From the NCBI GenBank assembly GCA_029204225.1, contig MU832107.1, positions 1-64,000 of the forward strand: a stretch of 64,000 nt of DNA. The letters are read 5' to 3'. Position numbers and translations under genes: made by a program. The DNA comes from Diphasiastrum complanatum. Taxonomy: Eukaryota; Streptophyta; Lycopodiopsida; Lycopodiales; Lycopodiaceae. Shown one piece after another: positions 4,711-54,767 of the stretch. The notes beneath the pieces are model-generated. The model searched no databases. It saw only the letters and a list, made by a program, of their open reading frames with translations, and was not told where the DNA came from. How positions within the stretch are numbered: the stretch's first letter is position 1; each line of letters starts with the position of its first letter.

Positions 4711-4712
4711 CA

Positions 4713-5955
4713 TGTAGCGCAGGCATCCCAAAGGGAGCCGGGAACCACGACTTAGCTTCCCAACCTTCAACTCTTGCCATCCAAACCCACTTGACATACA
4801 AGCAGCCAACTCGCCAACAACGATCAGACTTAACCAACTTGAAGTTCCGAAAACCAACATTGAGATCCAACCTGGCGCCATGCCAGATCGGGGGTCCCGA
4901 TGTGGGTGACTTCCCTCCAAGCAAGCCGCCCGACATACATCAAACTTAACCAACTCGAAGCTTCGTTACAAACGAGTAACATCCATTCCAAGCAAGCGGT
5001 CTGACTTACATCAAACTTAACCAACTGAAAGCTTCGTCACGAGCGCTGGAAGCCAACCTGGCGCCACGCCAGACTGGACAGCCATAAACAGGTAACATCC
5101 ACCCAAGCAAGCCATCCAACTCAGCCGACAGGTTAGAGCCCGTTCCCCAAGAGCTTAACCCATTCACGTTCATGCAAGGAACACTCAGAACCACAAGCCG
5201 CGACAGATATGGAAACAACCAGTTCCTGGACCAAATAGTCCCAACAGCATACCGCTGGCGCCACGGACCGAATAGTTCCGACGGCATACCGCTGGCGTCC
5301 CGGGATACGACCCTCAGCTATGTGCCAAGTTAAAAATTTTGAAAGCGGCCTTACAACTGGCGCTTTTACCGAACACTGAAAGTCAGAAGGTAATCAGAGT
5401 CAGTTTGAGAAAAATCCCACTTTATTGATAAATCTGAGAAGGTTACATTTCAAGTGTGTGACCGACCCTAGTCTCCGGGGCGCTAGCATGCCAAGGCGAG
5501 AGCCATGACAACATTCCAGCAAGGGAGGCTGAGACTTGGTTGGAGCTCGTCCTGAGTCGCAACCCGCACTCCCCTATAGTATTGGTGTGATTCGGCACCC
5601 CCCCTCATACCAAGCACTCTACCCAAGATGGTAAAGCACGTTTTTCTCTCTCTAGGATTTTCTCTTTCTAGAAAGTCATTTCTCTCTCTAGATTTTATTG
5701 ATCCCCATGCTTCCTTTAATCATGCCTAGATCGTGTGAGGTGATTGCACATCGATCTGAGCTCTCTGGACTCCGCTAGAACCGATCAAAGATTTTCAGCC
5801 ATAGGAACTTGGTGCCGGCTGGATTCTGGTCACAGTGGAGCCAGGAGCGGCGCCGGCGCTGTTGGCGCCGGAGCAGCAGGGGCGCTGCTGGCGCCGAGGA
5901 CATAGCTGGCACCGATGGCGCTGGAAGTAAAACTTGTAAAGGTAGCTTTACAACA
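4713..5955 (-). repeat. LTR of the nested element (upstream, 5' LTR)
   Basis: About 1.24 kb. It is longer than its partner mainly because of extra GGCGCC-type repeat units near 5835-5885. Confidence 0.85.
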
Positions 5956-8265: not shown

Positions 8266-8665
8266 CTCATCTAGCTAGCCTTTCCATGTTTACAGATACT
8301 TATGTACATGTTTTTAGATCTATCGTTTTGATTCGTACATTTGCCAAGGTCATAGGGATGTAGCTAGTTAATATGTATTTTTGAACCCTGACTAGTTATG
8401 TAATTGAGTTGTATTTGGCCCTAAACCATGTAGGAATGTTTAATTTGTTTGTTTTAAAGTGTAATTATTCACATGTATTGACTCGAACGACATGTAATCT
8501 CAGTATTTGTGATTATTAGGGTGTAATGTAATCTATTTATCTATGGTTGAATGTAAGGAGTGACTTATTGTATTAGACTCTAAACCCTAAAATCATTTAT
8601 TTAAATTTATTTCTTGCACTCATTAATTCTATAGGGTTTTATTTTTAAAAACTATATTTTGTTGC
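8266..8665. other. AT-rich spacer, nothing recognised
   Basis: No ORF of note and no repeat shared elsewhere in the window. It could contain the promoter of the downstream pseudogene, but no clear elements are visible. Confidence 0.4.
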
Positions 8666-9830
8666 TTGATGATCCCATACGTATCCTTAATGTCTTGTGA
8701 CACATCCTCAAGTCATGGATCTAGCCACAGTCACGAGTTGTCCCTTTTTTCATCCATGAGTGACGATGAGGTCCTCAGTTATATGGATGAGATGTCTCCT
8801 TCGCGTGCAAGCAAGATTATGGAGAGACTACGGGCTCATTGGGAGGCACAGAGTTCTAGTAGGTTGGTCGACTACCATCCACATCCTCTCATTCAGTAGG
8901 TTGCCTCATACAAGTGATCACACGACCACCGCGTTCATCCTCCACTAGGTGTGGAGAAGCACATAGTGGAGGATGAGCGCGATGGTCATGTGAAACACAT
9001 AGTGGAGGATGAGCGCGTTGGTCATGTGATCACTCGCATGAAGCAACTCACACATGTCATCTTCAACAAGGACATTTTCAAAAACTGGCACAAACAAAGT
9101 GATGACGACAAGAATTATGTCGTTGACCATTTGTATAGACAGTTTTTGCAATTTGCTCAAAAATGGATGGTGGGCCTCATGGGAGGCTTGATGAGCCAGC
9201 ACAAATCAGAGATCCAAGATGCGGTGAGAGCTGGCCATTGTAGGCCATATTACGTGCACAAAGACGATTGGAATTTTGCAAAGAAAGAATTTTGAGAAAA
9301 TCCAGATTGTCAAGCAACAACGAGAGGCAGCTAAGAAGCGACTGGAGACTGCAAGGCCTTCTCACCTTGGCAGTGCCGACCAAAGTTCTTTTCATGCCCA
9401 TTTCGTAAGTTTCCCCACCCATATGTTGAATTTGATATTATCGTAATTTAAATTTTATTTGTGAATTTGTTTAAATTAAATAACAATCACCAATCTGTAG
9501 ATTCATGCAGAAATCTGTCGTAAACTAGTCTCCAACAAAAGATGAGTATAAGTATGCTTATTCCAACAACATGCAATCATTGGAGAGACGAGGAGTGAGA
9601 ATTGATTAGGATGGATATTCTGAGGTATATATGGCTTCAAGATATATTTTAACGTCAACACATTCGTGTGATCGGACACTCTAACATCATCAATTACAAA
9701 ATTTAAACATCTTTATTGTACGCAACAAGTATCGTAGTCCCAATCTCATGCATCGCAGTCACATGAGTTTGATGACCATGGCCAAGACGGGGATGATTCA
9801 ACTGGATCTAATAATTACTCATTTCATTTT
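8666..9830 (+). pseudogene. Ptta/En-Spm (Transposase_24)-like transposon protein, broken
   Basis: Coding pieces in order are: a Ser-rich N-terminus with DDEVLSYMDEMSPSRASKIM (8666-8899); a central block with HVIFNKDIFKNWHKQ and YVVDHLYRQF (8951-9298); a KQQREAAKKRLE helix (about 9300-9405) ending at a possible donor GTAAGT near 9406; and a downstream piece with KYAYSNNMQSLERRG. The Lys/Arg-rich helix, the late DEY-type motif and the layout recall plant accessory proteins of CACTA-type transposons; this is my reading, not a search result. The frame is interrupted by at least one in-frame stop and several frame changes, and a local inverted duplication sits inside. A gypsy scrap follows directly. 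An uncharacterised host gene family is the main alternative. Confidence 0.5.
8912..9035. repeat. Inverted plus tandem duplication (hairpin) in the pseudogene
   Basis: An arm of about 30 bp near 8916-8946 is the imperfect reverse complement of the segment near 8964-8993 (shared core GAGGATGAGCGCG). That segment is then repeated in direct orientation near 9000-9030. The result is a hairpin with a loop of about 20 bp plus an extra tandem arm, inside a formerly coding region. Confidence 0.75.
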
Positions 9831-9905
9831 GATATATGTTCATAATTGGAACATTTATGTAAAAATATATATAATTTGTTTAATTTAAGTACTCTACATG
9901 AATCT
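9817..9905 (+). repeat. 3' flank shared with the methyltransferase pseudogene
   Basis: About 90 bp aligning with 17024-17112 at roughly 85-87% identity by eye. In both places it begins just after the last coding-like segment. Here it is cut off by the gypsy fragment at about 9900. Confidence 0.7.
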
Positions 9906-10085
9906 TTTATATGGACCATCAACCCTTGCTCTATCTTGTTAACAAAACTTGCAACACAAGGAGAATCACCAAATGGCTACTTCTGTTGTTGGAGTTTGAT
10001 TTTTGGATAGTAGTCCATAAGGGAAAACAACACTACATGGCAGATCATGTGTCACAAATCAAGAGAAAAGAGGTTGAAACCCAAC
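9900..10085 (+). mobile_element. Ty3/gypsy RNase H fragment
   Basis: One plus-strand frame reads TRRITKWLLLLLEFDF followed by HKGKQHYMADHVS, the usual end of the gypsy RNase H domain. It is short, isolated and has no LTRs. Confidence 0.75.
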
Positions 10086-14598: not shown

Positions 14599-14610
14599 GC
14601 TCTGATACCA
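14599..14610 (-). other. Primer-binding site of the copia element
   Basis: The plus strand reads GCTCTGATACCA, the complement of the tRNA-iMet type primer site TGGTATCAGAGC. It directly abuts the LTR starting at 14611. Confidence 0.85.
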
Positions 14611-14971
14611 TGTCGTAAAACGTGAGGATGGTTGGCAATGGAAGCTTGAGCATAGGCGTGTAGGAATGGAAACACAACAATTAGCAACAGAAATATTCAA
14701 GATGAATCATTCATACAAAATTGCACAAATGAACAATACAATAGTGAGACAAAATTGCACTCTGATTAATATCAATAGTGAGTACAATGGCTTGAAGTGA
14801 TAACTTCAGCTTGCTGAGCGTGATAACGCTAGCTATAGACGAACTCTGATTATAATGTTAAAAACCAATACTCTCATTGCTTGATTCAACTAGCAATATA
14901 CATTTACAAGTGTCTTCTAAAATATCTTACAAGCTTTTAATGTTATTTACGCCAGTCTTTGTATATGTACA
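14611..14971 (-). repeat. 5' LTR of the copia element
   Basis: About 361 bp between the primer site and a terminal TGTACA (minus strand TGTACATATAC). The outer boundary is inferred from TG...CA ends and is not confirmed by a second copy. Confidence 0.6.
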
Positions 14972-15059
14972 AAGTGGGTAACCGCTCTTGGGATATTTTA
15001 GCAGTCCAGCTATTTTTAGGATTTATGATAAGTTGGCGGCGTCGGTCTGCCAATGTTGG

Positions 15060-15390
15060 AGAAACCTGAAAAATGCGAAGGTGCCCTTGAACAGAAAAGC
15101 ATGTAAATCCCGAAGGTGCGAAAATCCCAAAGGTGCCTTAAAAAGCGAAGGCAGAAAAAATGCAAAAACTCGACAGTGCCTTTAAACTAAACTTTGGTCA
15201 CAGTGTCACATTTTTCCTAAAGGCAGAGAAATGTGAAAATCGCGATAGTGCCTTTAAAGTAACTTTTGGTCACAATGTCGCATTTTTTCAGTAACTGCAA
15301 AAAATGCGAAAAACCCGACATTGCCCTTAAATTAAGTCTAGTCACAGTGTCGCATTTTTTAGTAAGTGCAAAAATGCAAACTTAAAGCGA
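15060..15390. repeat. Tandem repeat of about 72 bp with internal hairpins
   Basis: A core of the form CGA-AGTGCCTTTAAA recurs at 15171, 15243 and 15316, with a looser copy before 15100. Each unit carries TCGCATTTTT and AAAAATGCGA in inverted orientation, so single strands could fold into a series of stems. No coding is seen. Confidence 0.7.
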
Positions 15391-15559
15391 AAATGTTTTA
15401 AGTAAAAAACAAAGTTTTGGGAAAAATGTGAAGGTCCGAAATATGTCATTGGCCTTCGGCTGTTTTTCAGGATGCTCATTACTTGAGCGATTTGTTAAGG
15501 CTGAGCATAAGAAATCTAACACTCACTTTATTTTTTTATTTTATTTAGAGATATGGCAT

Positions 15560-16310
15560 TCACTTCACTTATGCTTAGCATAGAAATATATTAATTTTTT
15601 ATTTCAAACATTCATAGCTTATGCTAAGCATAGAATTGTATTCTCTAAGCTAGAATATCAAGCTTAGCATAAATTGAATTTTTTAATTATTTATTATGTT
15701 CATTCTATGCTAAGCATAGTTCATTCTTCATTTTTCCTTGGTTAACATCCTATGGTAAGCATAGTTTCATTCTCTCTTCTTTCAGTCTACTGAAGACAAA
15801 AGAATAAAGTCCTTCCAGAGTAGTTTAAACGACAAATTTTAAAAATGAAGGCAGAGAAAAGAGATAGAGAAAGATTGGCACGGGGTGAGACCCTTGTCGA
15901 GGAGGATTCAACATAAACATACATCCCAAAATGTGTTGATGATCAACCGTGTTTTTACATTGTGGAGGAAGGAGATTGTAGGGAGATTTCTAAGTTTTTA
16001 AAGAAAAGACCTTACACTCTTTGCATTGCAGACATTCCCTATGGATTTCAAGTGAAAGAATCACTAAATGATGTTTTCGATTTAAATTCACTGAGATCCA
16101 TAGTGTGATGTAGGGATTCCTTGAAGGCACAACTTCTCCTATTTGGAGAGTTGTAATATTTCATTCAAGCTGGCAGTTGGCTTTAGTGCAAAAAGCTCTT
16201 TTGACTTTTTGCAATACTGTAATTGAAAATGCTATTTGGTATGTTTTCAACTTTGTTAAAAACTTAATTTTGTTTGTTTTATATGTTGAACTTATATGCT
16301 TAGCATAGAT
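15560..16310. repeat. Array of the palindrome TATGCTWAGCATA
   Basis: The 13-bp palindrome TATGCTTAGCATA or TATGCTAAGCATA, or a one-change variant, recurs near 15568, 15619, 15660, 15707, 15752 and 16290. The copies lie upstream of the methyltransferase pseudogene and in its intron. The symmetry suggests binding sites for a dimeric protein or a small satellite; which is unknown. Confidence 0.65.
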
Positions 16311-16998
16311 CATTGTTAAAAATAGTAATTTACTTTTCTTTTTGTAGGTACAAGCCCAATGTTCGCAATGTTGGTGGTGCACAACTGTGCAATGAGATTG
16401 AATACATAACCATTGGTTATTATTTATTGGATGGCAAACGATCTATGTTGCATGACAACACCACCATCTTGACTAGCTTTGGGAATTTGTTCCAATTTCC
16501 AATAGTCACAAAAAAAAACCGAAAAATCCGATGACAGGTTCTGTGGCTTGTCCTTATTAAAAGCCACAACAATCAATTAATCATATTATTGAAATTTTTT
16601 TCCACCTAGCAGATTGGGTGTTAGATTTGTTTGGCGGAAGCGGCACTACAAGCACATGCGCTGTGCAAAAAGGCAGGCATGTTGCTGCTGTAGAATTAGA
16701 TTCTAGTTTAGTAGAATTTATAAAAATGCGAATGAAATCCATATTAGTTTTGCTGCACGAATTAGTTGAGGTAGGAAAGTCTACAGATGATGAAGACTCT
16801 GTAATTCCTCTGTCTAAAGAACCACAATCTCCCACTAGTGAGAAAGTGAGTGACACAGGGGACTTTGCAGATGTACTCCTAGTTGAAGATTATAATGTTC
16901 TCACTGTTGAAGAGGTTGTTGTTTTGTCTACTGAGGCTGCTCCAGAAAAGCCCAAAGACGTCAACGACCTTGATGATTTCTGGGAAGCATGTACATGA
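15845..16998 (+). pseudogene. Beta-class DNA amino-methyltransferase-like gene (N6_N4_Mtase family), broken
   Basis: The first exon region (from ATG 15845) encodes a charged start, then CIADIPYGFQ near 16026, a variant of catalytic motif IV (usually DPPY). Next comes SPIWRVVIFHSSW and an intron with clean borders (GTATGT at 16239, AG ending 16347). The junction gives AIWYKPN, the pre-TRD motif typical of these enzymes. The last part has KPQQSINHIIE, then LDLFGGSGTT and GRHVAAVELD, matching S-adenosylmethionine-binding motif I, followed by an acidic C-terminal tail ending at 16998. Motif IV before motif I is the beta-class order. Known members methylate the amino group of adenine or cytosine in DNA and are mainly bacterial or phage. 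At least three interruptions of the frame make it inactive here. It could be a host gene or cargo of a mobile element. Confidence 0.7.
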
Positions 16999-17023
16999 CT
17001 ATTTTATCATTTTGAAATTACAT

Positions 17024-17112
17024 GTTTCATTCTGATATATGTTTCTAATTGCAACATTTATGTATGAATATATATAATTTGTTTAACTTAAGTCCTCTAA
17101 ATGAATCTTCAA
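17024..17112 (+). repeat. 3' flank shared with the pseudogene at 8666-9830
   Basis: Aligns with 9817-9905 over about 90 bp, starting about 25 bp after the methyltransferase stop codon. Shared UTR-like sequence suggests that both genes derive from the same type of unit. Confidence 0.7.
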
Positions 17113-17984
17113 TTACATGGAATGCAATTTAAATGTTTTTTATTTATCAATTATGAACAAATGATTCTGCTTACCAACCACATAAGTAGTGGTGCAAAAG
17201 ACTCATGGGGTTGGATGGAGTCCACTTTTAGGACTCCAAATCTTTTTTCCCATTTGCAGCCTCGGAATAAACCTAGGAATAGGATGCCTTGTTAAGAGGG
17301 ATATACCAAGGGACATCCCTTTGGTATATCCCTCGGAAAACACATGCCAGCAACAGCCTTTTTAGAGTAATATACCGAGTTCCCTCGATATATCCCTCGG
17401 TTTATACATGCTATAAACAAAGCAAAAATGAGATGAAGAAGCCTCGATTACCGAGATATTTCTGAGATATACTTCATGGTGTATACCGAGGTTTGGAAAC
17501 TTTTTTCAAAAAAAAAAAATTCCAATAATAGGGTCGGAAAACCTCCAGAATGTTGTAATGTTATCTATCTTGAGTTTTGGGAGTGCTATGCCAAATCCAC
17601 TCCGTGTACATTTATAAATATGTGATTGACTTGGATTAGCTCATGATAGTATAGGTTGCTTACACTTGGCTTGATGGTAGAGGGCAAGTGACTATGCACC
17701 TCATAATGTCATTTGACCATGGGGACCAACCATAGGAAAAGAGGTGCACCAAAATGGTCCAATCAAAGTAAGAGGTGGTTTAAGTGTGGTCCAATCATTA
17801 TAAGAGGTGGTAAAATAAACACCAACCGAGACCCATTTTTTCAAAAGTCTAATCTGTTCTTAAAAAATGCCAATTTCAAATATTAAGTTTACAAAAATTA
17901 TTAAAAATTTTAAAAAAAAATCATTTTATTATAATTTACAAACATGAAGAAACCTAAGCTAACAATTGTAGGTCTTGTTTTTTT
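17113..17984. other. No gene; palindromic ATACCGAGG/CCTCGGTATA motifs
   Basis: Motifs of the form ATACC(A/G)AGG and CCTTGGTATA/CCTCGGTTTATA alternate between about 17300 and 17490. The rest is AT-rich with homopolymer runs. No ORF is supported. Confidence 0.4.
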
Positions 17985-20164: not shown

Positions 20165-20836
20165 TCATGGCGTGAATTTCTTCTTCAATTGATGAATTAT
20201 ACCCTCATCCAGCTGGAAGGTCTTCTGAAGCACAGTATCGGGGACTCCAGAGCCAAACAACGTGTTCTGAAGTGCCTCAACATCAGGATTCTGGCTGTTA
20301 AATATCGCCAAAATCACAGCGGGAGTTCCTCCGATGTTATGCTGGTAGTGAACCAGTCCTCTAGGATTGATAAAAACATCTCCTTGCTCAAGTTTCTTTG
20401 AGAAAAGTGTATTGTTCGATGACACAAAACCCGCTTCAAACTTCCCTTGCATCACGAAAACTAGCTCAGATGCTCGAGGGTGGACATGAAGAGGGCTGAT
20501 GCCATCAGGAGCAAAGTCTGCCCTCACGATAGAAAGCCCCAGAGTGTTGAGACCGGGCATTTGCGGCACCAAGGCAACTGTTGGGACGAATCCAAGGACA
20601 GTGTTGGCAGCGTTGCGTGTGGTGCGAAAACCCGTGAAGGTGAAATCATCTGCGTTGACAGATGAGGGATCTTTGCAAGCGAATCCATTGACGTGCAGGT
20701 GGGAGTTAAGATCTGCGACACAGAAGTCTTGTAATGGGTCCTCGTCAGTTGCAAGTGCGTAGCCACTGAATGCCGTCAAAAACAACAAGACACGAATAGC
20801 CACACTCAGAGACTCATGCGCCATGGCGGCCAGCAT
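20165..20836 (-). CDS. Germin-like protein (secreted cupin)
   Basis: Intact single-exon ORF of 223 aa, the normal length for germin-like proteins, which are apoplastic Mn-binding cupins often linked to superoxide dismutase or oxalate oxidase activity and defence. A signal peptide ends near residue 30 (YALA). Cys39 and Cys54 fit the conserved N-terminal disulphide. Cupin box 1 supplies His117, His119 and Glu124; box 2 (GDVFINPRGLVHYQHN) supplies His163. These are the four expected metal ligands. Asn141 is a possible glycosylation site. The second ATG (Met5, codon 20824-20822) sits in GCCGCCATGG, a near-ideal context, so the protein may be 219 aa. I see no introns. A GA microsatellite lies about 230 bp upstream. 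Substrate and subfamily cannot be told. Confidence 0.95.
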   Translation of the reverse strand: MLAAMAHESLSVAIRVLLFLTAFSGYALATDEDPLQDFCVADLNSHLHVNGFACKDPSSVNADDFTFTGFRTTRNAANTVLGFVPTVALVPQMPGLNTLGLSIVRADFAPDGISPLHVHPRASELVFVMQGKFEAGFVSSNNTLFSKKLEQGDVFINPRGLVHYQHNIGGTPAVILAIFNSQNPDVEALQNTLFGSGVPDTVLQKTFQLDEGIIHQLKKKFTP

Positions 20837-21065
20837 AATTAGTCGACGTAGCAGCAGCTGCTAATTAATTCTATGAAGACAACCTTGCCTGGAAACCTTA
20901 TTTCTTTGACCTTTGTTGTTGCTGCTGTGAATTGTGATAAGAATGCAAAGAGCTACCTTATGTCTACAACCACAGATTGAGTGCAGGATTGAGATTACTG
21001 CAGCAAAACACTCTTGTACCAACAGCCGTGTCGAAAGATGGATGTATTTGGATAGCTAGTCTCAC

Positions 21066-40574: not shown

Positions 40575-40831
40575 TTTCTGCCTTTTACAATGTTTGTAGA
40601 TTTTCTTGTTACATGTAATATTCTTAGAACAGAGAGGGTAGTGATTTAACAGACAATATGTTATCAAGCCTCCTAGATGATCAATGGGATAAAATGAGTA
40701 ATGGCAATATCGAGTGCATAGTTAATAGATCGCCACTGAAATTTAGATATCTTATAGAAAAACAAATGCTTTCTTTAACATGTTATTACAGATGATTATA
40801 AAGTCTTAAACCAAGAATCTTATTCTAAGCA

Positions 40832-46302: not shown

Positions 46303-49300
46303 ATGCCAGTGCGGGACCGAGGCCTTTGGGCCGAGCTTACCGATGGGGATGTGGGCACACACCATGGCTCAGGCACCCGCAGATGGAGATGCTTGCATTG
46401 CGGTGGTCACTTCACGGGATCACTCACCAGGGTTAGGGCTCACTTGCTGCAGTCAGAGGGCCAGATGGGCGGACATTGGGCATATCTGATTGCCCCAGGA
46501 TTTCTGATGAGGATCTGCAGAGGTTGTCTACCATGTACGGGCCCGATACTGCATCACAGGGTTCTAGACAGGGACAGGCAGCAGGAGCAGCTACAGGTAG
46601 GCATACAGGAGGGCTCACAGGCAGACATGCAGGGCCTACCATGGATATTGGGCCCAGTACATCACGGGCAAGGCATGGTATAGCTGCAGGGCGTACATCA
46701 TGGGTTGGGCATGGTATAGGTGTAGGGCCCAGTACATCACAAGCAGAGCATGGTACAGCTGCAGGGCCCAATATAGCACGGGCAGAGCATGGTTCAGGTG
46801 CAAGGCCCAGTAGAGCACCTTCAGTTCCATCCGCAGCAGCAGCAGGACCATCAGATGAGCATGTTGGTTCAGCAGCAGCGGGTGCTTCTCGACCCTCCTC
46901 CTCGGCAGTAGATGCACCACATGCTTCGGCAGATGTTGCCAGAGAGAGTGACACACCCACAGATCAGCCATCCGTTGGGCATGCCAGACCACGAGCACCA
47001 TATACACAGCAGAGAGGGGTTAGGCCCGGGCAGCAGACCCTTGATCGATGCGGCTGGCAGAGAGAGCAACGGGCCCGTTGCACTCGACTGTGTGGCCAGT
47101 TCTTTTACGAGTGTGGCATTGCCTTTGCTATTGCTGACACTTGGGTGTTCAAGGGAGTTCTGTGCACAGATGGCGGCCATGGATGCTACATGGACACCTC
47201 CCAGGCGAGAGGCACTACGAGACAGGTTGCTTCGTCAGGAGGAGGAGACCATCACGCGGGAGTTGAGTTCCATTCGCTCAGCTTGGCAGCAGTAAGTAAC
47301 TTGTCTTTGTAATCTCTTTGCATGTGTTTAGGATTTACTGGTGCCGTAATTTTTGCATGTAGCTAATGGGTGTTTTGCGACAGGTATGGATGCACGATAC
47401 TGAGCGATGGATGGACCGACATTCGTCGGCGATCCGTCATCAATGTCTTGGTTTCTTGTCCGCTTGGCACAGTATTCCTACGTGGCGTGGATGTCACTCG
47501 AGGTGGTGACGCCATCACAGCCGATTTCATATGGGAGGTCATTAGAGATGTTATTGCTGACATCGGAGATGAGCACGTGGTTCAGGTTGTCACCAACAAC
47601 ACCTCGAACTGCAAGCAGATGGGCGAGATTATGATGAGGGAGCACCCCAGCATTGTGTGGACACCCTGTGCTGCACCTTGCATAGACTTGCTCATCCATG
47701 ACCTATGTGCGCTTCCATGGATCAGAGAGGTATAGTTTGTTCTATTTGCTATGCTTTCTTCCTTCGATGCTGCTAACCACGTCTCAACTACTGTCTAAAC
47801 TTTTTTACTGGGTGTTTGTGTTGCAGATCACTTCTACGGCCATGCGCCTGGTCACTTTTGTCACCAGGAAGAGGCGTGTGTTGGCCCTGTTCCGCACCTT
47901 CTCCACCCTAAACCTGAAGAAGCCCGCACCCACACGCTTTGCGTTTTACTTCTTGGTGCTAGAGCGATTGGTGGTGGTGAAGGATGCATTGCGGCGGATG
48001 GTTTCCAGCGTGGCCTTCCGGGACTTTACAGACCTCCCCCATTCGACATTTTTCCAGTCCACTGTGTACGGCGACGAGTTCTGGAGAGCTGCTGAGGAGA
48101 TTAGTGGGATCCTACTACCCATTTACAGAGTGCTGCGTCTGGTAGACCGTGAGGGGTGCACCCTCGGTCTCATTTACGAGTTCATGGAGTGCATCGGCGA
48201 GGGGATTCTGTTGTCAGCCTTGGACGAGCATAGGTATGACTCTTCAGTGTCTAGTTTGTTGTTTCTCACTCGAGTCTGATGCATTTCTTTTATGCTATGG
48301 TTTAGTGATTGTTGTAATTTGTCTGTTGCAGGAGGCGCGAGATCTCACGCATCTGGGAGGCCAGATGGGACTACTTCCACCGACCCATCCATGCCGTAGC
48401 CCACATGTTACACCCCTTGTGGCGCTCTACACGAGAGAGGGACGATCCAAAGCTGCACCGGGGATGGGTGGAGTACACGGAGCGCGTATGGCCCGGACCA
48501 GGTACGTGTGAGAAATCATTTGGTAGCAATGTTACTGCAGTATTGTACTCATTGGTAGTGTCTGAATTTGAGGGGTCTTACATGTGCCATGTTTTTCCTT
48601 TTGCCAATAGGTCCGATGTTGGCCAACATTGCAAGCCAGCTGCTCGCATTTGAGCGCTTCCAGTTTCCTTTCGATGGAGAGCAGAGTCGGCGGAGGGAGG
48701 ATCAGCTGAGGCCCGTTACATGGTGGTGCATCCACGGGCACAGCACAGGTGACCTGAGGCGATTGGCTGAGAGAGTCCTTGCACAGGACTGCTCTGCAGG
48801 AGCTTGTGAACGGAATTGGAGCACTTGGGCCTTGTATCACACGCAGAAGAGCAACAGGTTGTCCATCGAGCAATGTAGGCGGTTGCTGTTTGTGAACACC
48901 AACGGCCGTATGCTGAGGCGCACACGAGGAGAGGGTCAGATGCTCGAGGTGAGTCACATCATCACCCCTTTTTTCTTGGTATGCTTTGGTGAATTGATTT
49001 GCTTTCAAAATATGCAGTGAGTTGCACAATACCTGCCTAACAACAATGTATTGTTTTTGGTTGCAGGTGGACCCCGACACTTGCTTGGTGGATTCGATAG
49101 CTGCTGCTCCTCGGGCACCACCCACACAGGAGGAGATGGATGATGAGATCCATAGAGAGCTCTACAGACAGGCACAGGTTGACGCACGGGCTTTACGGCG
49201 GCAGAGGAGGACAGAGAGGCAGAGGGAGAGGGCTGAGGAGGGAGATGACGAGGTCTCGGAGGGTGGAGAGATGCTCGGGGCAGACTATGTGGAGGAGGAG

Positions 49301-51717: not shown

Positions 51718-51990
51718 GCATATTTAGATTCCTGGCAAACATTAGTCAAGAGCTTGCTTGCAATCACATCGTTGGCAGATACAGTTTTGTTGTATGTTAA
51801 TATGCTGTGTAGCACACAATGCACATTGTTTTGGCTCTAGATCAGATAGCATCGCATATTTGGATTCCTGGCAGACATTAGTCAAGGGCTTGCTTGCAAT
51901 CACATCATTGGCAGATACAGTTTTGTTGTATGTTAATATGCTGATGCAGCACACAATGTACATTGTTTTGGATCTAGATCAGATAGCATC
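51718..51990. repeat. Tandem duplication of 136 bp upstream of the glycosyltransferase
   Basis: Units start at 51718 and 51854 (GCATATTT-GATTCCTGGCA) and are about 95% identical. The second ends about 36 bp before the glycosyltransferase ATG, so the copies probably lie in its 5' leader or core promoter. Confidence 0.9.
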
Positions 51991-52025
51991 CTGATGGTTG
52001 TGGATCACTTTGGAGATTCTGCTCA

Positions 52026-54767
52026 ATGGAAGAATCATTGAAGATCAGAGTTCAAAGACGCGTAGTCTATAGAAGCAGAAAAGAGCTATGGGCACTATTG
52101 CTTGGGGTAACTTCTCTTTGCATATGTGTAATCTTTGTTAACAATTTAGCATCAATTGTTTCTCGGGTGGATTCACCCTCTGAGTTTGTAGACAAGGAAG
52201 AAGATTTGAGGAGGCAGGCGGCTATTTGTGATCAGACGCTGTATCCTGCAGCCTGGGAACTCAAAGCAGATCAGATCACAATACTTGTGAATGGATTTGC
52301 CGAAGCTCGCCTTCCCCTTTTGCAGGCATCCATGCAGAAATACTCAGCCTCTCCTGAGGTGCACTCCATCTTCATCCTCTGGGGCAATGTGTCCACTCCT
52401 CGCTCGGTCCTTCAGAGCGCTACCTTCGTCAGCGTGGGCTCACCGATCTATGTTGTGAGACAAGACTCCACAAGCTTGAACGATCGATTTCTGCCTAGGC
52501 CTTATATCAAAACCAGAGCAGTGATGGTTTGTGATGATGATATCACCATTGAGCTCGAAGATCTCAAATTTGCACTGCAAGCGTGGAGTGAGAATCAGAG
52601 GCGAATTGTGGGCTTTTTTCCAAGAACTCATTCCTATAATCTGAACACCAAGTCTTGGATCTACACCAAAAGCGCAACGCGGTACTCGATCATGCTAACA
52701 AAGCTCATGATTATAGCCACAGAATTCCTATATCTCTATACCTGTAAGATGCCTCCGGGCGTGAAAGAGTATGTGGATGAAGGAATGAACTGTGAGGATA
52801 TTGCTATGAATTTCCTCGTGTCAAGCTATGGCGGACAAGGTCCCTTGTTTGTAGCAGGAAAGCCACAAGACTGGGGAGACACTCGGTCCTCGGCCAATGA
52901 CCTGAATACTATGGGGCTTAGTGCTCGCGTAGGGCACAGAAAGGATCGAGGGGATTGCATTGGGGCGTTTCAGAGGCTGTGGGGAAGCATGGAATTGAGG
53001 TATAGTTCTATCAAAGCAATCCCGGATGTGGAAGAACAGGTTCTCTGTGATAAATTTGGAGTTTTGATCCACTGTGATGCTCTTGTCTTCTCTCGGCGTG
53101 AAGCCCTGAGAATTGCTGGCAAACAGATAATAGCATCCAAGGCTCTCTTTGCATATGTGACAATTCTGCCATCTTGCAATCTCCTGAATGCTTCTTTTGT
53201 GCTGGCACAATCCCTTCGCAGCACAGGCACTGTTCATGATCTTGTAGCTCTGCTGCATCCCTCTGCCAACATCAGCGATGAGCATCCTCTATTGCAGGAG
53301 CACTTTGATGTTGTCAGACAGATCCAGTGGAGACATGAGAGCAGGCTTTTTAGGAAAGGCATTGAAAAACTGACTCTTTGGCTGCTCTCAGAGTACACAA
53401 AAGTAGTTTATGTGGATGTTGAGGCATTGGTGATTTCTAATCTAGATCATCTATTTGAACTTTCGGATTTTGCTGCAGGATCTCAGATGCTCAATCCACA
53501 GTACTTCGATTCAGGGTTTCTTGTATTAAGACCATCGATTGCAACCTACAAGGCAATGATAGATACACTAGAAAAAGCTAACATCTCCCATTTGCTAACC
53601 GCTGATCATTTCCTGAATGCCTTCTTCAATAGCTGGCTTGAGATGCCAACAAATTATAGGTTACCAATGTGCTATACCGCAGTGCTACACCATATTTCTG
53701 AATCAGAATATCCTCCAGGTTTTGACAGGAAATTTTTTGATCGAAAATTGGGCAATCTTGCAGTTATTCGCTTGCCCAATTTGACATTTGCTTTGGCTGC
53801 TATTGATCCACTGCAGCAAGCATGCACCCACATCTGGTGTAATGTTTGGATTCAAGTTTTTGAAGCTCTGGTGAGGAATTCTTTTCAACCATATGAAAAC
53901 GAGAGTCTGCCTGTCTCACAAGTTTACCCTGCTAACCTCACATTGCCTGAGATTTCTATTTCAAGATCAGCAACAGACAGCACTCTGGAGCAAGGCCAGT
54001 CCCAGCTTGAAGCTTTTGCAACAGTCATTTATGAAAATAATACCTTCTGTCTTGAGGGATGGCTGGTGTCCTTCCAGGAGTACCACTTTCTTAGTAGATC
54101 TGTTGACACATTGTTGATTGTGGTGTCTACCGTGGATGAGCAACTGTGGAAGTCATACGCAGAACTGTTCGACAATGTTGTGGTGGTGGATCCAGTTGCA
54201 TTAAATGGAGACATAATCCACTCGTCATTTGCATTGCTATACTTATGGAATCAAACTTCATATGCGAGGCTAGTTTATGTTGATTTATGCTCCATATTTT
54301 TGAAATCCTGCAATGCCCTACTAGATTATTATACTCCACTGGCGGCCATTCCAAATATTTTACTTCCGGACACATTCTCCACGGAGGTGGTAGTGTTGCA
54401 GCCTAATAAGCTAACTTACCAGTCGCTTTCGGAAGGCCTTAAAACCTACAAGGTCTTGGATCAATCCTTTGAAAGTTATGCAAACTTTTACTACAGGGAT
54501 TGGCACACATGGCCTGCAAAGCACAGACTTGTTCCGTCATTTCGAATTGACATGAGATTTCATACACAGCTCTTTGAACAAATTGAACATTCAACAAAGC
54601 TTTTGGTATTCTCTAGCAATCCTCCTATCTGGAGCAGCTCCACCAATTGGACTCCTTTAGAAAAATTGAAGGTTAAGAAGCGTTGGAAAAGAACTTTGTG
54701 TAGCAAAAAATATGCAATCCAAGCAGGTCCTGGTAATGTGACTAAAATATGCAACAATTTGGAGTAA
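52026..54767 (+). CDS. Type II membrane glycosyltransferase: GT64-like + GT8-like + degenerate GT8-like
   Basis: Intact single-exon gene, 913 aa. A basic tail and one membrane anchor (about residues 21-45) indicate a Golgi type II protein. Residues 83-350 match the exostosin-like GT64 fold: ITILVNGFAEARLPLLQ, DRFLPRPYIKTRAVMVCDDD with the metal-binding DDD at 170-172, and MNCEDIAMNFLVS. Residues 374-612 match a glycogenin-like GT8 domain: LRKGI-type LFRKGIEKLTLWLL, VVYVDVEALV (DVE in place of the usual DxD), NPQYFDSGFLVLRPS, DHFLNAFFNSWLEMPT. Residues 664-880 look like a further GT8-type domain whose motif is only YVDLC, so probably not catalytic. Several N-glycosylation sites (such as Asn121, Asn388, Asn415) support a lumenal location. 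Plant GT64 and GT8 enzymes act on sphingolipids, xylan and other wall glycans; the substrate here is unknown. The start follows the in-frame membrane anchor. Confidence 0.9.
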   Translation: MEESLKIRVQRRVVYRSRKELWALLLGVTSLCICVIFVNNLASIVSRVDSPSEFVDKEEDLRRQAAICDQTLYPAAWELKADQITILVNGFAEARLPLLQASMQKYSASPEVHSIFILWGNVSTPRSVLQSATFVSVGSPIYVVRQDSTSLNDRFLPRPYIKTRAVMVCDDDITIELEDLKFALQAWSENQRRIVGFFPRTHSYNLNTKSWIYTKSATRYSIMLTKLMIIATEFLYLYTCKMPPGVKEYVDEGMNCEDIAMNFLVSSYGGQGPLFVAGKPQDWGDTRSSANDLNTMGLSARVGHRKDRGDCIGAFQRLWGSMELRYSSIKAIPDVEEQVLCDKFGVLIHCDALVFSRREALRIAGKQIIASKALFAYVTILPSCNLLNASFVLAQSLRSTGTVHDLVALLHPSANISDEHPLLQEHFDVVRQIQWRHESRLFRKGIEKLTLWLLSEYTKVVYVDVEALVISNLDHLFELSDFAAGSQMLNPQYFDSGFLVLRPSIATYKAMIDTLEKANISHLLTADHFLNAFFNSWLEMPTNYRLPMCYTAVLHHISESEYPPGFDRKFFDRKLGNLAVIRLPNLTFALAAIDPLQQACTHIWCNVWIQVFEALVRNSFQPYENESLPVSQVYPANLTLPEISISRSATDSTLEQGQSQLEAFATVIYENNTFCLEGWLVSFQEYHFLSRSVDTLLIVVSTVDEQLWKSYAELFDNVVVVDPVALNGDIIHSSFALLYLWNQTSYARLVYVDLCSIFLKSCNALLDYYTPLAAIPNILLPDTFSTEVVVLQPNKLTYQSLSEGLKTYKVLDQSFESYANFYYRDWHTWPAKHRLVPSFRIDMRFHTQLFEQIEHSTKLLVFSSNPPIWSSSTNWTPLEKLKVKKRWKRTLCSKKYAIQAGPGNVTKICNNLE

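Follow-up and report, generated by a model that had tools for sequence, protein, structure and literature searches.

A decayed beta-class DNA amino-methyltransferase gene with a probable spliceosomal intron in plant-like surroundings

The window, i. e. the whole 64-kb stretch of DNA analysed here, harbors a DNA amino-methyltransferase gene at positions 15845-16998 of the plus strand that, upon reading in three frames, falls into four reading-frame pieces. The first piece (15845-16105) has a candidate ATG at 15845 and a stop at 15914-15916, after which the frame is open from 15917 to 16105 and encodes GDC as well as DIPYGF (16031-16048). The second piece (16114-16238) lies in another frame, runs from VVIFHSSWQ to ENAIW, aligns with relatives and ends at a putative 5′ splice site. 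Behind a candidate intron, the third piece (16348-16531; YKPNVRNVGGAQLCNEIEY and onward) covers the target-recognition region, which was also aligned with relatives; on its own, this piece is not significant. The 3′ piece (16561-16998) comprises 145 open codons and encodes a KP block, LDLFGGSGTT (16621-16650) and, at its C-terminal end, an acidic tail. When the region 15501-17500 was shuffled 300 times, one shuffle contained a stop-free run as long as the 145 codons at 16561-16995. Here and below, DIPYGF, P..KP and LDLFGGSGTT are referred to as motifs IV, X and I, respectively.

The pieces are separated by several lesions. Near 16106-16114, a frame change coincides with a stop (TGA at 16106 or TAG at 16111, depending on the frame). 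A second frame change is located between about 16505 and 16545, and another stop follows at 16558-16560, while the stop at 15914-15916 counts as an extra break only if coding begins at ATG 15845. One of the frame changes lies within an A-rich run and might be a sequencing error, an explanation that does not apply to the stops. With at least two stops and two frame changes, the gene is hence a pseudogene, as a preliminary description of this DNA had proposed, and the copy at 15845-16998 is unable to give a full enzyme. The same description had placed the start of the last exon at 16560. This is wrong: the open frame 16561-16998 is merely what follows a stop, and the true last exon extends from 16348 to 16998 across two breaks.

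The enzyme family can be recognized without any joining of the pieces. In Pfam, 16561-16998 alone matches PF01555 (N6_N4_Mtase) with an E value of 8.5e-9 and 36.1 bits at a curated cut-off of 26.7, and the pieces entered together with X at the breaks reach an E value of 3.4e-12. Among solved structures, a CcrM chain (6pbd) is the best match (E 5.1e-8), followed by RsrI and MboIIA; the 6pbd alignment spans residues 66-250 of the pieces entered together, and a weak separate stretch is found at motif IV. DNA methyltransferases are also top-ranked for the 3′ piece in NCBIfam and PHROGs, with the NCBIfam model for CcrM (NF050803), whose cut-off is 830 bits, giving 26 bits (E 4.1e-6) for the last piece and 42.9 bits for the pieces entered together. 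A profile was in addition built from 55 of 92 relatives (37 were removed by ORF length) and run on all 2,055 ORFs of at least 20 amino acids in the window. It detected 16561-16995 at E 1.8e-16 and 15917-16105 at E 3.2e-4, with the next of the 2,055 ORFs at 1.1, and these values are, unlike those from Pfam, partly circular, as the relatives were chosen by similarity to the joined pieces. The best ORF per shuffled window scored between 0.51 and 6.9 in five shuffles. Taken individually, neither 16352-16522 nor 15917-16105 matched a Pfam family, the two middle pieces gave no PHROG match at E up to 1, and 16304-16531 obtained E 15 with the profile; the two middle pieces are supported by their position and by the spliced join.

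In an alignment with 12 plasmid and phage relatives, which are 19-26% identical to the pseudogene, 16 columns are invariant. These include the D and the P-Y of motif IV, P..KP, and the D...G.G of motif I, while in W-x-K-x-N the K and N are invariant and the W nearly so. The motifs follow each other in the order IV (DIPYGF), IWYKPN, X (P..KP) and I (LDLFGGSGTT), which is the permuted order of the beta class. Position and alignment thus uphold the earlier reading of DIPYGF, IWYKPN and LDLFGGSGTT as an ordered beta-class set, and PF01555, the CcrM structure match, the motif order, the invariant columns and the profile together bear out the assignment to the beta-class amino-methyltransferases. 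A non-methyltransferase Rossmann protein, which had been named as the finding that would speak against this assignment, is not the best match; the best matches are DNA methyltransferases.

Motif IV is of an uncommon type. Relative to the pattern (D/S)PP(Y/F/W), DIPY retains the D, the second P and the Y, and the first P is substituted. A pattern count in the 92 relatives yielded DPPY in 60, SPPY in 20, DPPF in three, DIPY in two (L020 and L025) and DLPY in one (L010), the remainder being two doubtful cases and four relatives without the motif. L020 and L025 are related methyltransferases from IMG/VR in which DIPYG replaces DPPYG, so that the variant does occur in phage-type open frames. According to excerpts of PMC8885841, SPPY is typical of most bacterial N4C enzymes and DPPY of bacterial N6A enzymes; given this usage, N6-adenine is a likelier target than N4-cytosine for an enzyme with Asp in motif IV, as far as a decayed gene may tell. 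The same excerpts caution that either specificity evolved repeatedly in this domain.

The codons for IWYKPN are split by a candidate GT-AG intron of 109 nt at 16239-16347 (plus strand), with the upstream exon ending in TTTG at 16238 and the downstream exon starting with GTACAAG at 16348. To examine the position of the gap, excisions with a first cut from 16150 and a last removed base up to 16439 were scored with a stop-free frame as a requirement. This gave 6,776 frame-compatible excisions, 26 of which have GT-AG ends. The top profile score of 13.5 is common to six excisions that are one base apart and produce the same protein at the join, owing to the GGTA at either end of the stretch, and 16239-16347 is the only GT-AG pair among these six. 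The second-best GT-AG candidate reaches 7.7, against a median of 1.5 over all 6,776 excisions. Hence, the cut required by the protein coincides with the position of splice signals. The composition agrees with this: 16239-16347 contains 50% T, compared to 30-35% in the exons, 40% in the upstream flank and 38% in the downstream flank, and its 3′ end is rich in pyrimidines. When the flanks were divided into 152 overlapping windows of 109 nt, one attained a T content of 50%. Excision test and composition thus corroborate the GT-AG intron that had been proposed inside the IWYKP codons, and they support 16239-16347 as a spliceosomal intron that was probably removed by splicing. Another candidate, located by eye at about 16539-16610 based on an in-frame join and a pyrimidine-rich AG end, was rejected, since the conserved P..KP block and a length matching the relatives fall inside it.

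The GGTA at both ends also permits a different view of the 109 nt, namely as a piece that was inserted, with duplication of a GGTA target, into an already decaying gene that never had introns, for example after a late transfer; such an event with its 4-bp duplication would leave the same picture. The stretch moreover shares sequence with the upstream region. A 15-bp palindrome, CTATGCTWAGCATAG, is present in four copies upstream of the gene (15569-15764, plus strand) and in a fifth at 16294-16308 within the 109 nt, and the portion 16260-16317 is 75% like 15671-15728. At up to two mismatches, this palindrome occurs five times in the 64 kb, always between 15569 and 16308, where 0.15 occurrences are expected and none of 100 shuffles reaches five; a looser 13-base search added one place, at 40821. 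An insertion would, however, have to account for GT and AG ends at the sole fitting register, a pyrimidine-rich 3′ end and a T content rare in the flanks, and a search within 16239-16347 found no terminal inverted repeat. In addition, the usual splice consensus itself includes a G at the exon edges. An insertion is thus decidedly unlikely, and a spliceosomal intron is the preferred reading.

Other repeats are found on both sides of the gene. A repeat search detected a 72-bp tandem array with 3.1 copies upstream (15155-15374, plus strand), and the segment 17016-17121 (plus strand) in the 3′ flank has an 85% identical copy at 9813-9915, where a further decayed gene-like ORF (about 8627-9842) has its 3′ end. 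The palindromes, the array and the shared flank could be marks of a transposable element or common regulatory repeats. In the former case, the methyltransferase may have been cargo of an element that methylated its own DNA to evade silencing, and the gene described here would be a dead copy. The recurrence of the flank at the end of a second decayed ORF fits such a scenario, as do the upstream array and the palindrome cluster, yet the similarity of the flanks is confined to about 105 bp, the four pieces of the ORF at about 8627-9842 yielded no Pfam match with an E value under 0.04, and none of the 18 inverted pairs in 14600-17700 convincingly resembles element ends. The gene is also the single methyltransferase copy within the 64 kb: tblastn of three peptide pieces against the window revealed no second one, the best weak match having an E value of 0.58. 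Overall, the cargo scenario is unlikely. Rfam at gathering thresholds returned nothing in the window. Elsewhere, the window contains a 1.2-kb direct repeat with 94.6% identity (1153-2371 and 4712-5955), and inverted copies of the adjacent segment 634-1151 lie near 40.9-42.0 kb.

The surroundings of the pseudogene are plant-like. Inspection by eye placed copia-like retrotransposon ORFs on the minus strand of the left flank (about 10.4-14.5 kb) and integrase-like remnants on the minus strand of the right flank (17.9-18.4 kb), so that retrotransposon-like remnants lie at about 0.9 kb from the gene on either side. Adjoining a probable LTR, the minus strand carries TGGTATCAGAGC at 14599-14610, a sequence that commonly serves plant copia elements as primer-binding site. 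A germin-like cupin gene is located at 20168-20860 (minus strand; Cupin_1, E 6.1e-40 in Pfam), and a single open frame of 926 amino acids at 51987-54764 (plus strand) encodes a GT64 domain at residues 97-344 followed by a long remainder that hardly matches Pfam. A DUF659 domain, presumably a mark of hAT-type transposon proteins, was observed at 47367-47732 (plus strand; E 1.6e-38). The methyltransferase locus has 37% GC and an observed/expected CpG ratio of 0.39, as compared to 0.55 for the window, 0.72 for the cupin frame and 0.43 for the GT64 frame.

Relatives of the joined pieces are numerous, albeit distant. A phage collection contained 235 matching records at E ≤0.1, of which 22 extend over at least 80% of the query, and a plasmid collection gave 966 matches at E ≤0.01, with 17 over at least 80%; the long matches in both show 21-27% identity, among the matches listed. 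When the last piece was scanned against prokaryote species genomes and a single sequence against IMG/VR, 90 and four candidate stretches came up, respectively, none of which was confirmed. An alignment-based scan of IMG/VR retrieved at least 90 relatives in at least 600 candidate stretches, and the 80 that were kept are diverged enzymes of the same family with 22-53% identity in short best segments. Because PF01555 is chiefly a bacterial and phage family, bacterial DNA joined into the assembly was considered as a source of the gene. Such contamination, already named as a caveat in the preliminary description, is opposed by the GT-AG intron and by the plant-type flanks with their retrotransposon-like remnants (assigned by eye) on both sides. 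The GC content and CpG ratio of the locus speak against it as well, as does the lack of a near relative in the plasmids or in the scan of prokaryote genomes, and it is next to impossible. Alternatively, the gene might stem from an integrated fragment of a large DNA virus of algae or plants, as chloroviruses, which infect green algae, have many DNA methyltransferases according to excerpts of PMC7248222. A GT-AG intron within the conserved core would be unexpected for such a fragment, Pfam scans of ten other ORFs of the window found no viral gene, and the retained IMG/VR relatives are of low identity, all of which makes this origin very improbable.

A tree built by a quick method from 84 rows, i. 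e. the pseudogene as entered and 83 of the 92 relatives (ORFs of 190-460 amino acids), gives the pseudogene no supported kin and a branch length of 3.16 changes per column. The pseudogene joins the long branch of L002, from a Bosea plasmid, with an SH-aLRT value of 81, a grouping flagged as doubtful. With 26% as the best identity, a recent transfer from any of the compared relatives appears unlikely.

Taken together, the locus very probably represents a now defunct gene from the nucleus of a plant-like eukaryote, a gene that had a prokaryotic or viral ancestor and encoded a SAM-dependent DNA amino-methyltransferase of the beta class (PF01555). This judgement would be still firmer but for the GGTA at either end of the intron, which is compatible with a plain insertion. 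In the ancestral enzyme, motif IV (D-I-P-Y) would have bound a base flipped out of the DNA, while SAM was held by the C-terminal FGGSGTT loop, and the methyl group could then have been transferred to the exocyclic amino group. Presumably, the gene stayed in a eukaryote long enough to bear a spliceosomal intron as well as the acidic C-terminal tail, before it may have decayed through stops and frame changes. This hints that the lineage once ran a bacterial-type DNA methyltransferase and may still do so elsewhere.

An intron-bearing gene of this type in a plant-like genome is a handle on the writers of N6-methyladenine or N4-methylcytosine in plants; the copy described here is dead, and what makes it interesting is that it predicts intact relatives. 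N4-methylcytosine in plants is known from Marchantia, as far as the excerpted sources go. The writing of N6-methyladenine into plant DNA is disputed in excerpts of PMC12695648, in which the MT-A70 family, belonging to another class, is given as the source of eukaryotic 6mA. More speculatively, the pseudogene could belong to a second, older and as yet undescribed land-plant lineage of D-type (adenine) enzymes, apart from the Marchantia 4mC enzymes and spread by a transposable element, of which intact copies at other places in the genome would write N6-methyladenine; we regard this as unlikely. Among the literature titles and abstract openings searched, neither a PF01555 pseudogene nor an adenine-type PF01555 enzyme is reported for plants. 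Likewise, no DNA methyltransferase of bacterial origin was found in the excerpted text of the Ceratopteris genome paper (PMC9477723), 4mC terms are absent from PMC13398078, and PMC12746709, as excerpted, contains no more than a citation of Walker 2025.

Comparison with known systems places the pseudogene among the bacterial and phage enzymes of the CcrM/PF01555 type, with which it shares the order IV-X-I, KP, GSGTT and an alignment along its length. It differs from these relatives in its low identity (19-26%), DIPY instead of DPPY, the intron and its decay, and it carries an acidic tail where CcrM has a C-terminal part of its own. In plants, Marchantia polymorpha provides a counterpart with MpDN4MT1a/b, a DNA amino-methyltransferase described as bacterial in origin; excerpts of PMC8566409 describe these enzymes and 4mC in sperm, with the donor unnamed. 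The pseudogene may be a decayed orthologue or paralogue of this plant 4mC family, a bacterial gene acting in sperm DNA methylation, which would differ from the explanation preferred here solely in the base and the subfamily. MpDN4MT1a/b are, after all, published plant 4mC methyltransferases of bacterial origin. By their description, the functional Marchantia enzymes write 4mC, whereas motif IV of the pseudogene starts with D and not with the S of the SPPY that prevails among bacterial N4C enzymes; moreover, the Marchantia enzyme is without extra N- or C-terminal domains according to excerpts of PMC8885841, in contrast to the acidic tail of about 75 residues found here. Membership in the MpDN4MT1 family is a real possibility, though one short of even chances. 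The N4CMT of bdelloid rotifers resembles the pseudogene as a horizontally acquired PF01555 gene with introns, but is, as described in the excerpts of PMC8885841, an active enzyme of an animal host with SPPY, a chromodomain and five conserved intron positions, whereas the pseudogene has DIPY, and the Pfam matches listed at E up to 10 include no chromodomain. Both the Marchantia and the rotifer enzymes are called bacterial acquisitions in excerpts of PMC12344493. Horizontally acquired PF01555 enzymes of eukaryotes are thus already known from Marchantia (4mC) and bdelloids (N4CMT), and these published cases lessen the novelty of the present one; what is new is another such gene with an unusual D-type motif.
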